39,710 bases of DNA, taken from positions 1 to 39,710 of IMG/VR virus record IMGVR_UViG_3300001798_000012; one strand, written 5' to 3'. The position numbers were made by a program, and so were the translations under genes. Below the pieces are notes generated by a model, which was not told the DNA's origin, searched no databases, and saw nothing but the letters and a program-made list of their open reading frames with translations. This document shows, one piece after another, positions 3,891 through 28,168 of the stretch. Position 1 is the stretch's first letter. Every line of letters starts with the position of its first letter. The stretch comes from a virus.

Positions 3891-4982
3891 ATGGAAACAC
3901 GAACCATATGTTGCAAGCTTCTTACAACGCCCACTATTGCAGACGCTCTTAAAGAAACAAGCGAGCGTTTTTCTGATGCGTGCAACCATATTCTTAAAAG
4001 AGCTATCGAAGAGAAAACGCACAATGCTATTAAACTGCATAAGCTTTGCTATGCAGAAGTTCGTGAATTGTTTGGCCTTTCGGCTAATCTTTCTGTCAGA
4101 GCAATCCGCCGTGTTGTCTCTTGCATGACAAAATTGAAAGGGAAGCGCAAACAGCCTAAAAAATTTAGCCCAAAAAGCATTGATTACGATGCTCGTATTT
4201 TTACTTACCAAGAACAAGACGAAACAGTTTCTTTGACTACAACGAAAGGAAGAATCCGCGTTCCTATGATTCTTGGTGAACATCAACGAAAGTCTCTCAA
4301 AGGACAAAATCCCACTTCCGCAACCGTTATTAAGAAGGGAGAGGATTGGTATATCCATATAGTTGTTGAGTTTAGTGCTGTCCCCATTGATGGAAACGGA
4401 GTAATCGGTATTGATCTTGGAATTAACAACATTGCCACTACTTCTACAGGGTTTCAGGTGGAGGGAAAAGCACGGCAAGATTTTAAAAAAAAGAGAGCTA
4501 GAGTGCGAGCCAGTTTGCAATCTAAAGGAAAGCAAAGCACTAAAAAAGTTCTTAAAAAACTTTCGGGTTACGAAAACCGAAGAATTAAACACGAAAACCA
4601 TGTTCTTTCTAGACAGCTTGTTGAGGAAGCCAAAAGGCACAATTACGGAATCATCCGCATGGAACAGCTTAAGGATATTCGAATCAAGACAAAGACATGG
4701 AACAAACATCTTAACCGCATGGTGGCAGGATGGAGTTTTTACCAGTTGCAACAATTTGTAGAATACAAGGCTGCTGCGTATGGTATTGCTGTCGAATTTG
4801 TTAATCCTGCATATACAAGTCAAACTTGTCACCATTGTTTAAAGTTAGGCTCTCGTAATGGAGAGCGTTTTAACTGTTTAACCTGTGGCGAAGAGCATGC
4901 CGATGTCAACGCATCGCATGTGATCGCCTTAGGCGGGGCTGCCTGTAAACCAGCCCGAATTAGCATCCGAAAGGATAGTTAA
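3891..4982 (+). CDS. tnpB: TnpB, RNA-guided nuclease of IS200/IS605 (363 aa)
   Basis: RuvC-like nuclease, the Cas12 ancestor family. The catalytic triad appears intact: D175 in GIDLGINNIAT, E258 in IIRMEQLKDIR, D338 in HADVNAS. A zinc finger is formed by CHHC (313-316) and CLTC (329-332). The N-terminal domain (CKLLTTP ... ERFSDACNHIL) is typical. Length is slightly short of the usual 370-410. Known family members use a guide RNA from the element's right end to cut the donor-free target and keep the element in the population. No tnpA partner is present. Confidence 0.92.
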   Translation: METRTICCKLLTTPTIADALKETSERFSDACNHILKRAIEEKTHNAIKLHKLCYAEVRELFGLSANLSVRAIRRVVSCMTKLKGKRKQPKKFSPKSIDYDARIFTYQEQDETVSLTTTKGRIRVPMILGEHQRKSLKGQNPTSATVIKKGEDWYIHIVVEFSAVPIDGNGVIGIDLGINNIATTSTGFQVEGKARQDFKKKRARVRASLQSKGKQSTKKVLKKLSGYENRRIKHENHVLSRQLVEEAKRHNYGIIRMEQLKDIRIKTKTWNKHLNRMVAGWSFYQLQQFVEYKAAAYGIAVEFVNPAYTSQTCHHCLKLGSRNGERFNCLTCGEEHADVNASHVIALGGAACKPARISIRKDS

Positions 4983-25128: not shown

Positions 25129-26247
25129 TTAACTATTGGCAAAATCCGGAATCCAAGCTTCCCAAAATATCGTATTTCCGTTTGCACCAACGAGTACAGA
25201 AGAGGTGAATGAAACACCTGCCCCTGCTCCGATGATCAAACCTTGACGTGTATTATTGGCAAACGCTCCACTAATTCCAGGACCGCCTACGATGGAAACT
25301 CCACCGGAGGAAGTTGGGAACTGAGGAGATGGATACAGGACACTGCCGCTATACGCTGGACCACCGCTATTGATATCGCCCACAGCCACAACTTGAGGGA
25401 AATTCAGGCCAGGAACACTTGCAACCGTCTGGTTGCTGTTAAAGGCTGTATATCCTGTCGAGTTAATGCTGCATACGAATATCGTGTTGCTAGTCACAGA
25501 AGTTACATATCCATAGATCGGAGATCCAGGGATCGTTGTGTTAGGAAGCGAATTCAATTGGGTTGTACCCCAAAGAGACGGAATCCTAAATGCAATTTCT
25601 TGACCAACTACGTAGTTGTGGTTAGCTGTTGTTGTAACAGTAGTTGTCGTACCTGTTGTAATAGCGCTGATGTAATTCACACCAGGCTCGTACAGATCAG
25701 GATACAACACCTTTTTCACGTAAGCACCAGATGGAGATGCACTCAAAGCAGTATAATTGCTTTGGTTGGTATTCCAAATGATCGTGAATGTGGTAGCGCC
25801 TGTCACAGTAATCACAAAAGGAATTGTACAAATCTGAGGCATACCAGTTGTTGAAGACTGATATAGCCCTTGGAAAATGACAGTATCCCCTGTGGAATAG
25901 CCGTGATTAGACGCTGTTGTGACAACAGCCGGACTTGCTTTTGTAATCCCAGATATCTGAATTTGCGCACCATACTGCAAGGCAAGCCCTGCACTAAATG
26001 TGCTAAATCCAGCTGAGGTCACTATATCCGTAGACAAGACAGGAGTTGCATTGAACACTTGTTGCACTGCATATCCTTGCCCCATCGAGACATCCCAATA
26101 AGCAAAAGGCACACCATTCTGCGCAGGAGTGCCAGCGGCTGTATAGTTTGTCAATCTAGCGTTTGTAGGCTGGAATGGCAAATACAGCGACTTAGCAGCG
26201 CCTGTTGAAGTAAAACTTCCCTTAGCAAATCTTGAATACTCAGCCAT
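25129..26247 (-). CDS. Virion protein downstream of capsid (372 aa)
   Basis: Ser/Thr/Gly-rich beta protein with two similar domains: ASNHGYSTGDTVIFQGLYQ ... TFTIIWNTNQSNYTAL and ANHNYVVGQEIAFRIPSLWG ... FVCSINSTGYTAF. The NHGY/NHNY-x-GD/GQ motif marks each. The C-terminus is GGPGISGAFANNTRQGLIIGAGAGVSF. The position immediately after the major capsid gene and the strong expression context suggest a head decoration or fibre protein. Its ATG overlaps the capsid stop by 1 nt. Confidence 0.6.
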   Translation of the reverse strand: MAEYSRFAKGSFTSTGAAKSLYLPFQPTNARLTNYTAAGTPAQNGVPFAYWDVSMGQGYAVQQVFNATPVLSTDIVTSAGFSTFSAGLALQYGAQIQISGITKASPAVVTTASNHGYSTGDTVIFQGLYQSSTTGMPQICTIPFVITVTGATTFTIIWNTNQSNYTALSASPSGAYVKKVLYPDLYEPGVNYISAITTGTTTTVTTTANHNYVVGQEIAFRIPSLWGTTQLNSLPNTTIPGSPIYGYVTSVTSNTIFVCSINSTGYTAFNSNQTVASVPGLNFPQVVAVGDINSGGPAYSGSVLYPSPQFPTSSGGVSIVGGPGISGAFANNTRQGLIIGAGAGVSFTSSVLVGANGNTIFWEAWIPDFANS

Positions 26248-28168
26248 TATACACCTCCATTATTACCAGCTCTTGTGCAGAGCAGGTTTCGGATAGCTGT
26301 ATCTTGAGTAATCAATTGGCTCTGGGGGAACCGTACCGCAAGCGTAGCATTTTGCATCAGCATGCCTGAATACTCAGGGCCTCTATACAGAAGCTGCATA
26401 GAATCCCCATCTTGACTGATATGCGTTACAGCCTGTTTACCGCAAACAGTGTTGTAATACACATCTCGGCTAGCTGCTGATGCACTTCTAGCCACTGGCG
26501 CTTCAGAGCTTGTCAAGATACGTGTGTTAAACACATTTCCGTACTCAGAATATAGAGCACTAATAGTGCTACTATAATTCATGACTGACAAGAATCCTGC
26601 GCCTGTTAGTCCATCAAAATCAGGCTGTAGCTCTGTAGAGCTAAGCATGAAATAGGATGGGCGTATTGGGCCTGTACCGAACTTCAACGAGCCTTCTTCA
26701 CCTGCGATAAATTTCATCGCATTATTAGTGTCAAGGGTCGATGCCACCAACGAGAAGTCAGAGACTCCTAGGTTGCTTGGATTGTCGCCATTGTTCCCAC
26801 CGCCTGCATAGATATCCGAACTAGCGGATACTACGTAGTCGCGGAGGATAAGCATTCTGTTACCCCACCTTTCGGCGTGGATAGGTCATTTCTGCCTACC
26901 TCTCGGATTTCATCTATAGTCCGAGTTCAGAGCACCGCATCTCCTTTTACAGAGTCCAACCGCTTGCTGCGTTCAGGCTGCACACTTTCGCTGCTTGCCC
27001 CTTGTTGCCCCATCGGGTTTCCAAGTTAAAAATTAAATACGCCCATGACTATAATAATTGTCTTCAATTTTATACATCATAGAACTGCACATATATGGCT
27101 TCACAAGATAAATGAAGTTTTTTTTAGATTCTTTTTTACTTATGCAAACAGTAGGTCCCTTTCTATCATATATTCTAGCTTCTACACCATAAACCAAAAG
27201 CTTTTCTAATAACAAAGAAAGACTTTCTTTGTCAAAGTCATTGGTAGAGATACAAAATTGATGAATATACGGATGTACTTCATAATAGATAATACCTGAT
27301 TTAAGCTTCATTTTGTCTTTTTTTATAACGGCTTTATGACCGTCATCTTGAAACAAAAATGCAATGGTTCTTTCATCAAATAATTCTATTAATTCTGGGC
27401 AAAGTGTTTTTTTTCCATTTTTATAAAGCACTTCTCTTACTCTTTTTATTTCTGAGCTTCTTCCTGTCATTGCATAACAAACATGAAATCCCTTATCTAT
27501 CCTTTCCCTAAAAATACATTCAATTCCATTTTCCCTTAAGTAATTCATCTTAAAATGAACATACTCTTTTTGTTTTATAGAATGATGCATTCTTAATAAA
27601 CAATTTGCATTCTCGGTTTTTGGTTTTGATATATACCCGTCACCCAAACTTAAATCTAGGATAGCTTTATTTAACATTCATATATCTTACCTTATATGGG
27701 CTTTTAATTCCATCAGGTTAGATTTATCGAGGACATTATCTCTATCCTCGGCTTGGCGCATCGACATGGCAAGTCTTTCACTCACCCATGCTAACACCAT
27801 TTGCGCCAAACTAAGAGGGCGTGTTATGCTGATATTTTTGACGTAAGTCCTTTACCCTCTTGATCTTGTAAAAGTACCTGCCAGTTAATTATACATCCTG
27901 TACCAAACCAAGCCATTTCAGCGTCAAGTATATCACGCTGAGGAACTTGCGCCGGAGGATCTATGCCACTGTTACCTAATTGCACAGTCGGGGGCTGCAA
28001 CGCTCTTGGACGCATAAAGCGACAAGTCGTACCACCACCCACTGGCATATTTACCGTATCAGCAATGAGGCGATAATTCATCGTTGGTGTCGGCGTATAT
28101 AGATACGCAGGCGCCAGCGATTGTAGAATCATCGGTCCTAGATTGCTTGTTGTTGTAATGCCTGACAT
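26247..28168 (-). CDS. Major capsid protein, N4-gp56 family, three exons (324 aa)
   Basis: Exon 1a 28168-27854 (105 codons, MSGITTTSNLGPM ... NWQVLLQDQEG), exon 1b 27797-27744 (18 codons, VLAWVSERLAMSMRQAED), exon 2 26852-26250 (201 codons, LILRDYVVSASSDIYAGGG ... RNLLCTRAGNNGGV) with stop to 26247. Joined they give one in-frame HK97-fold capsid protein of the N4-gp56 family: TPTPTMNYRLIADT, GNSGIDPPAQ, the QDQxxVLA ... MR-x-x-ED-x-x-LRD block, NNGDNPSN, GTGPIRPSYF, EYGNVF, and CGKQAVTHISQDG all fit. Unspliced RNA would give only a 114-residue fragment ending at TAA inside the first insertion. The scaffold gene precedes it. Confidence 0.9.
26853..27743 (-). ncRNA. Group I intron in the capsid gene (intron B)
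   Basis: The 5' splice site follows U in CGAGGAU (exon, 27750-27744); the internal guide GUCCUCG (27734-27728) pairs with it over 7 bp ending in the required U.G wobble. The adjacent GAUAA (27740-27736) pairs with UUAUC of exon 2 (P10). The intron ends ...AACAGAAUG with a terminal G, as group I introns do. GCCCAU and AUGGGC flank the endonuclease gene and can pair, placing it in a peripheral loop. The region 26853-27032 is GC-rich and structured, but I did not resolve P3-P8. Excision makes the frame continuous. Confidence 0.85.
27033..27677 (-). CDS. LAGLIDADG homing endonuclease in intron B (214 aa)
   Basis: Two LAGLIDADG-type motifs: ILDLSLGDGYI (residues 6-16, D13) and TIAFLFQDDGHKA (104-116, D111/D112), giving a monomeric two-motif enzyme of the LAGLIDADG DNA endonuclease family. 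Basic, Lys-rich and more AT-rich than neighbouring late genes, as expected for a free-moving intron gene. Wholly inside the capsid-gene intron; it has its own ATG. It would cut intronless capsid alleles at the exon 1b/exon 2 junction and spread the intron. It could also act as a maturase. Confidence 0.9.
   Translation of the reverse strand: MLNKAILDLSLGDGYISKPKTENANCLLRMHHSIKQKEYVHFKMNYLRENGIECIFRERIDKGFHVCYAMTGRSSEIKRVREVLYKNGKKTLCPELIELFDERTIAFLFQDDGHKAVIKKDKMKLKSGIIYYEVHPYIHQFCISTNDFDKESLSLLLEKLLVYGVEARIYDRKGPTVCISKKESKKNFIYLVKPYMCSSMMYKIEDNYYSHGRI
27798..27853 (-). other. 56-nt core-less group I-like insertion (intron A)
   Basis: Splits the capsid frame between QDQEG and VLAW and brings an in-frame stop. 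Its ends obey group I rules: exon ends in U, insertion ends in G (CAAAUG, compare CAGAAUG of intron B). GCCCUCUU (27820-27813) pairs with exon AAGAGGGU over 8 bp ending in U.G (P1). UAACAC (27826-27821), directly 5' of it, pairs perfectly with GUGUUA, the first six bases of exon 1b (P10). Only 15 nt follow the guide, so no catalytic core is present. It is probably an intron remnant; a core would have to act in trans. Confidence 0.75.

Follow-up and report, generated by a model that had tools for sequence, protein, structure and literature searches.

A core-less 56-nt insert in a phage capsid gene as a candidate satellite of the group I intron downstream

The major capsid gene studied here appears to hold two intervening sequences that share one ribozyme: an 891-nt group I intron and, 54 nt upstream of it, a 56-nt insert that may be its satellite. 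We consider this reading, in which an Ala-Ala-stop tag typical of the intron family has decayed in this phage, to be quite likely from sequence comparison. Coordinates refer to the window, that is, the whole 39,710-nt stretch analysed (IMGVR_UViG_3300001798_000012). The capsid gene, which adjoins P22-type portal and terminase genes, encodes a contiguous 324-aa protein only once both inserts (56 nt and 891 nt) are taken out, and is laid out as follows:

27854-28168, minus strand: exon A, capsid residues 1-105 (spliced alignment to intronless relatives)
27798-27853, minus strand: small core-less insert, 56 nt, which breaks the reading frame; the exon ends in U and the insert in G (spliced alignment)
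27744-27797, minus strand: exon B, 54 nt, VLAWVSERLAMSMRQAED (spliced alignment)
26853-27743, minus strand: full group I intron with an endonuclease gene, 891 nt (spliced alignment and covariance model)
26247-26852, minus strand: exon C (PHROG 1357, major head protein, E = 1e-12)

The protein encoded by exon C is 76-77% identical to its closest relatives. Elsewhere, the phage contig also holds a Gly-Tyr/Ser-rich low-complexity repeat ORF (2269-2544) and a TnpB-like transposon ORF (3891-4982).

A first-pass annotation of the sequence had proposed that a LAGLIDADG-encoding group I intron divides the major capsid gene at 26853-27743, and our analysis confirms this. The elements of the intron are:

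27728-27734, minus strand: internal guide sequence GUCCUCG, paired with exon CGAGGAU (27744-27750)
27716-27722, minus strand: 5' strand of P3, UCUAACC, paired with GGUUGGA at 26955-26961 (sequence and family covariation)
27033-27677, minus strand: LAGLIDADG homing endonuclease ORF, 214 aa, between P3 and P4 (Pfam PF03161, PHROG 11023)
about 26965-26970 and 26930-26934, minus strand: the two strands of P7
26853-27032, minus strand: catalytic core from P4 to P9, through the terminal G (model R1, 110 bits)

The borders read CGAGGAU/ and G/CUUAUC, and the predicted guide pairing, with its U.G at the 5' splice site, and the terminal G at 26853 were both found as described. The P10 pairing with exon 2 is likewise present, as 5 bp (UUAUC with GAUAA) following a mismatch at the first exon nucleotide. 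The endonuclease ORF matches LAGLIDADG_2 (E = 8e-16; 58.8 bits against a cut-off of 25) and PHROG 11023 (E = 2e-11); its identity to proteins of named phages is only 26-34% and had no close relatives among the viral contigs searched.

The Rfam Intron_gpI search proposed alongside that annotation does not detect the intron: RF00028 gave no match in the window even at E = 10 and none in scans of 16 related loci, where it also missed close relatives of the full intron. As Rfam returned no Intron_gpI matches, we built a family covariance model from related introns (26 rows: 25 short related introns and one 54-nt fragment of the window), and this model does find the core, at 110 bits and E = 4.4e-32. 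It also finds P1-P3 (26.9 bits, E = 4e-7), which score apart from the core owing to the endonuclease gene. In the family alignment, P1, P3, P4, P5, P6, P7, P8 and P9 follow one another in the canonical order, and P3 and P7 form the expected pseudoknot; P7, as part of that pseudoknot, falls outside the covariance model and was counted separately. Paired cells make up 98.7% of the alignment's helices, 35 of the 42 pairs show double (compensatory) changes, none of 500 shuffles was as good and slid controls reached about 38%. Across 32 loci of about 12 kb each, model matches were confined to split capsid genes, with none in intronless ones, and in the genome bin that holds the window the full intron is the only match. 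The RF00028 miss reflects the limited reach of that model, a match to which does not define a group I intron, and the stretch 26853-27743 is, by its comparatively established structure, a complete group I intron that would be expected to splice.

The earlier claim that splicing restores the reading frame holds only in part. The capsid frame does run across the full-intron junction (QAED/LILRD), but the upstream capsid ORF ends at 27824, ahead of the 891-nt intron, because of the 56-nt insert at 27798-27853. A sequencing frameshift was considered as the source of this upstream stop and rejected; what was found instead is an insert with same-site counterparts in relatives. Its elements are:

27854-27861, minus strand: last 8 nt of exon A, AAGAGGGU, forming the 5' strand of the insert's P1
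27821-27826, minus strand: P10 strand UAACAC, paired with GUGUUA, the 6 nt that open exon B
27813-27820, minus strand: guide strand GCCCUCUU, 8 bp with exon A and U.G at the splice site (shuffle p = 0.0002)
27802-27811, minus strand: segment X, GUUUGGCGCA, 10 bp with X' in exon B
27751-27760, minus strand: X', UGCGCCAAGC, adjoining the exon strand of the full intron's P1

The insert therefore has the P1 with U.G, the P10 and the terminal G of a group I intron, and its P10 strand contains an in-frame UAA stop; it is too short for a P3-P9 core and has none of its own. The X:X' pairing is the best available, with no better position among 926 in the coding sequence. These pairings stand out statistically, whereas the splicing of the insert, the order of events and the use of a shared core are what we infer from them. 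One could argue that function is limited to the 891-nt intron and that the capsid gene is dead, its 56-nt insert being an assembly error or a remnant that shifts the frame, as the early end of the upstream ORF and the want of a core in same-site inserts might suggest. We regard this as very unlikely: same-site inserts with identical guide and P10 pairings recur in independent assemblies, P1, P10 and X:X' are all intact in the window, and the exon-encoded capsid protein is well conserved on either side of the insert.

The arrangement extends well beyond the window. A search with exon C retrieved 33 viral contigs, in some of which the capsid ORF is uninterrupted and in others of which it lies in pieces; when the split genes were compared, by spliced alignment, with the capsid protein of an intronless relative, one to six inserts per gene came to light. 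Very distant relatives (L419) were left out of the counts because their spliced alignment is unreliable, as were inserts with unreliable boundaries (L003 at residue 7, L025, L131 and L148 at site 69, and L026 at residue 34). Nearly all inserts begin exactly after U and end in G, and this is true at all four small sites. They fall into two classes. Full inserts of about 200-1500 nt form one family; many of those in L027, L030, L031, L032, L026 and L034 have short ORFs, often cysteine-rich, that continue through the conserved core (QPERLNP...RCDSLN), and the residue-184 intron of L030 (5460-6000) has a seemingly tRNA-like sequence near its 3' end, with a GGAGUUCGAAUCUCC arm and matching acceptor ends. 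Small inserts occur at capsid residues 88, 91, 104 and 114 and are mostly 32-93 nt long (30 nt in the held-out locus L296), although some at site 104 reach 325-987 nt, several with a LAGLIDADG ORF in the P1 loop. A model search with filters off found no core in two of these ORF-bearing site-104 inserts (950-987 nt). In this phage group the capsid gene is a hotspot for introns, with up to six inserts, a feature missed earlier together with the core-less second insert of the window and its pairing to the exon upstream of the full intron.

In all 25 non-redundant small inserts P1 comprises 6 bp or more and has the U.G, and a P10 of 4 bp or more lies directly beside it; for each of the 25 this combination exceeds shuffles at p ≤ 0.005. 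By comparison, a P10 of at least 4 bp is present in only 3 of 27 partner introns. A full intron lies 21-85 nt downstream of every small insert. There are eight site combinations: site 88 is partnered by 96 or 101; 91 by 98 or 120; 104 by 116, 120 or 122; and 114 by 122. Because same-site inserts share descent, the 25 cases are not 25 independent events. It might be supposed that the small inserts stay in the RNA and are skipped in translation, by programmed bypassing as in T4 gene 60; their length range and hairpins do resemble bypass elements, and many of their lengths are not multiples of three. We rejected this, and consider it extremely unlikely, because take-off and landing codons are mismatched: GGT against ATG or TTG at site 104 (GGT against ATG in the window), GGT against AAG or GCG at site 88, with mismatches at the other small sites as well. 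Bypassing would also leave unexplained the U.G, the P10 beside P1, the terminal G and the obligatory partner intron, and some versions, bearing a homing endonuclease gene, are about 950 nt long.

What ties each small insert to its partner is segment X, which lies between the guide and the 3' splice site and pairs with X' in exon B, directly upstream of the partner's P1, such that the helix ends 7-10 nt before the partner's 5' splice site. For 21 of the 25 small inserts, the partner position is the best match for X in the whole coding sequence, and when a single case is taken for each of the eight distinct site pairs the combined p is 6e-16. At small site 104, X differs by partner: AGGCUAGA with 116, GCUUGGCG with 122 and GCAUAGCUA with 120. 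In L119 and L131 the pairing is weak, with 23 and 9 better positions respectively, and in L003 the script's best run lies elsewhere, yet an AAUAACU-AGUUAUU pairing at the partner position is also present. Three held-out loci, drawn from loose DNA pattern scans for sites 91 and 88 (120 rows each, mostly unrelated), fit as well, with 0, 3 and 0 better positions in L253, L198 and L296; the pairing still agrees in one held-out locus whose capsid protein is only 43% identical. Engineered group I ribozymes can act in trans (spliceozymes, PMC4094466), so the core-less inserts might instead be cut in trans by excised introns or other cores, with X:X' merely preventing the misfolding of exon B. This is rather improbable, as no small insert lacks a full intron immediately downstream, and X is fitted to the exon position beside that intron's splice site.

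We therefore return to the satellite reading, in which the 56-nt insert would be a non-autonomous intron that supplies its own P1 and P10 together with the X pairing to exon B. The composite fold would run P1 (small insert), P2 (X:X'), P2.1 (the full intron's own P1) and P3 to P9, with the 3' splice site of the small insert lying in the P2 loop and held by P10. The pairing order P1-P2-P2.1-P3 occurs in other group I introns, such as that of Tetrahymena. The core would excise the small insert first, joining exons A and B, and would then excise itself, joining exons B and C. A close precedent is the engineered group I spliceozyme, which uses guide pairing to take out an intron of 64-100 nt that lacks a core, with P10 as a proposed helper (PMC4094466). 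Both arrangements have one group I core taking out a core-less intron; unlike the one proposed here, which is natural, apparently acts in cis and uses P10 and X:X', spliceozymes work in trans and define the 3' site through P9.2. Our literature search found no natural core-less group I intron that uses a neighbour's core, within a body of papers from which subscription journals were mostly missing, so that absence is unproven.

A second feature of the family, also missed earlier, concerns the protein that would be made when an intron is still present. Of 99 non-redundant inserts, 54 give a product that ends in Ala-Ala-stop when translation runs in from the exon, against 0 of 99 in each of the other frames (54/99 versus 0/198; Fisher p = 4e-32). 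The ends use 18 codon triplets and all three stop codons, and occur in all three intron phases. With the exon residue counted, they are found in 21 of 25 small inserts and 2 of 27 partner introns; among lone full introns they are found in 33 of the 37 located at residue 60 or later and in none of the 10 located before residue 60. The in-frame enrichment suggests an ssrA-like degron on unspliced products. Unspliced or half-spliced mRNA would be read from the exon into the insert, usually to an in-frame Ala-Ala-stop, and the resulting truncated capsid protein could become a substrate of ClpXP-type proteases, for which a terminal Ala-Ala is the main determinant (PMC7652416). The likeness to the ssrA/tmRNA degron (PMC7652416) lies in the C-terminal Ala-Ala, often Leu-Ala-Ala, and the tmRNA tag of the genome bin holding the window ends in LMAA; the difference is that the tag here is encoded by the intron in the exon frame, whereas tmRNA adds the ssrA tag. 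Two introns proven by RT-PCR show the same ending, the LittleE capsid intron (WNSVATAAA-stop) and the BAKA tail intron (LSDDLAAAAA-stop), and readthrough of the T4 td and nrdB introns lacks it. In the window, the two readthrough products end KGLTSKISA-stop and ...KAHIR-stop, without Ala-Ala, so the tag has apparently lapsed there. The distant relative L296 keeps its small insert and X:X', with readthrough ending VIV-stop, PVT-stop and VIN-stop rather than in Ala-Ala; the tag and the satellite arrangement are therefore separable.

The Ala-Ala ends might also be by-products of RNA structure, arising from hairpin loops with UAR and the UAA of a P10 strand, with no degron involved. In many full introns the codons do fall in a core hairpin, and the UAA of site 104 does belong to the P10 strand. 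We find this explanation unlikely, given that the third positions of the alanine codons vary in unrelated contexts, three stop codons are used, the frame is kept at three phases, other frames lack the ending, and it also appears in the LittleE and BAKA introns. Our literature search found no intron-encoded Ala-Ala tag either, with the same thin coverage of subscription papers and its absence equally unproven. Taken across the family, we think it likely, if with some reserve, that these genes hold a two-for-one unit, in which core-less satellites of 30-93 nt, some of whose P1 loops hold a homing endonuclease gene, make use of the adjacent ribozyme by means of P1, P10 and a helix that bridges the exon and is specific to the partner, and in which both intron kinds encode an in-frame Ala-Ala degron that may ease the cost to the phage.

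Single capsid-gene introns, one of them with an endonuclease gene, are already known from phages (PMC3706429), and the earlier description of this location, with a LAGLIDADG enzyme, as unusual was overstated; the first-pass interpretation of the intron is partly supported overall. Mycobacteriophage LittleE has a capsid-gene intron proven by RT-PCR; the ORF on the reverse strand of this intron was likened by the authors to a LAGLIDADG enzyme and is listed as HNH in the record (PMC3706429). Lactococcal phage Tuc2009 has a capsid-gene group I intron, as cited in that paper. These resemble the window in that a phage capsid gene carries an intron of group I type and, for LittleE, in the homing endonuclease ORF and the Ala-Ala-stop readthrough. 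They differ in having, as far as those accounts report, a single intron per gene and no core-less companion, in belonging to a different phage group and, for LittleE, in the opposite strand of the endonuclease ORF. Multiple group I introns in one phage gene also have precedents, in Twort orf142, with three introns and exon skipping (Landthaler and Shub 1999, as cited in PMC11878797), and in Bastillevirinae genes with two or three introns (PMC11878797). Those are not capsid genes and, in the accounts available to us, are reported without a core-less companion, whereas here there are up to six inserts.

The window lies on a 40-kb contig within a 1.9-Mb genome bin that belongs to the same order as bin G032. 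Five of the 232 genomes of that order contain the intron family (bins G000, G032, G149, G101 and G123; L419-L421), and the order of these five appears to fall within Chlamydiota. Since phage contigs of foreign origin may end up in a bin, the host assignment is only suggestive; were the binning correct, tailed phages that infect chlamydiae would be a notable finding. Contig C6 of the host bin (L001, 8707-8954) has a separate group I intron that passes the Rfam cut-off, in an apparent tRNA gene beside a recombinase gene, where ARAGORN calls no tRNA.

Our findings describe a family of group I introns that is invisible to Rfam. If the proposed arrangement is correct, non-autonomous satellites exist for group I introns just as they do for transposons, and a single ribozyme core can remove first one intron and then another from a gene whose product is an abundant structural protein. 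It would be a natural counterpart to the engineered spliceozymes and a model for how ribozymes acting in cis could begin to work on other introns, as has been invoked to account for the spliceosome's origin. The Ala-Ala ends, in turn, would represent quality control at the protein level that is written into the introns themselves.
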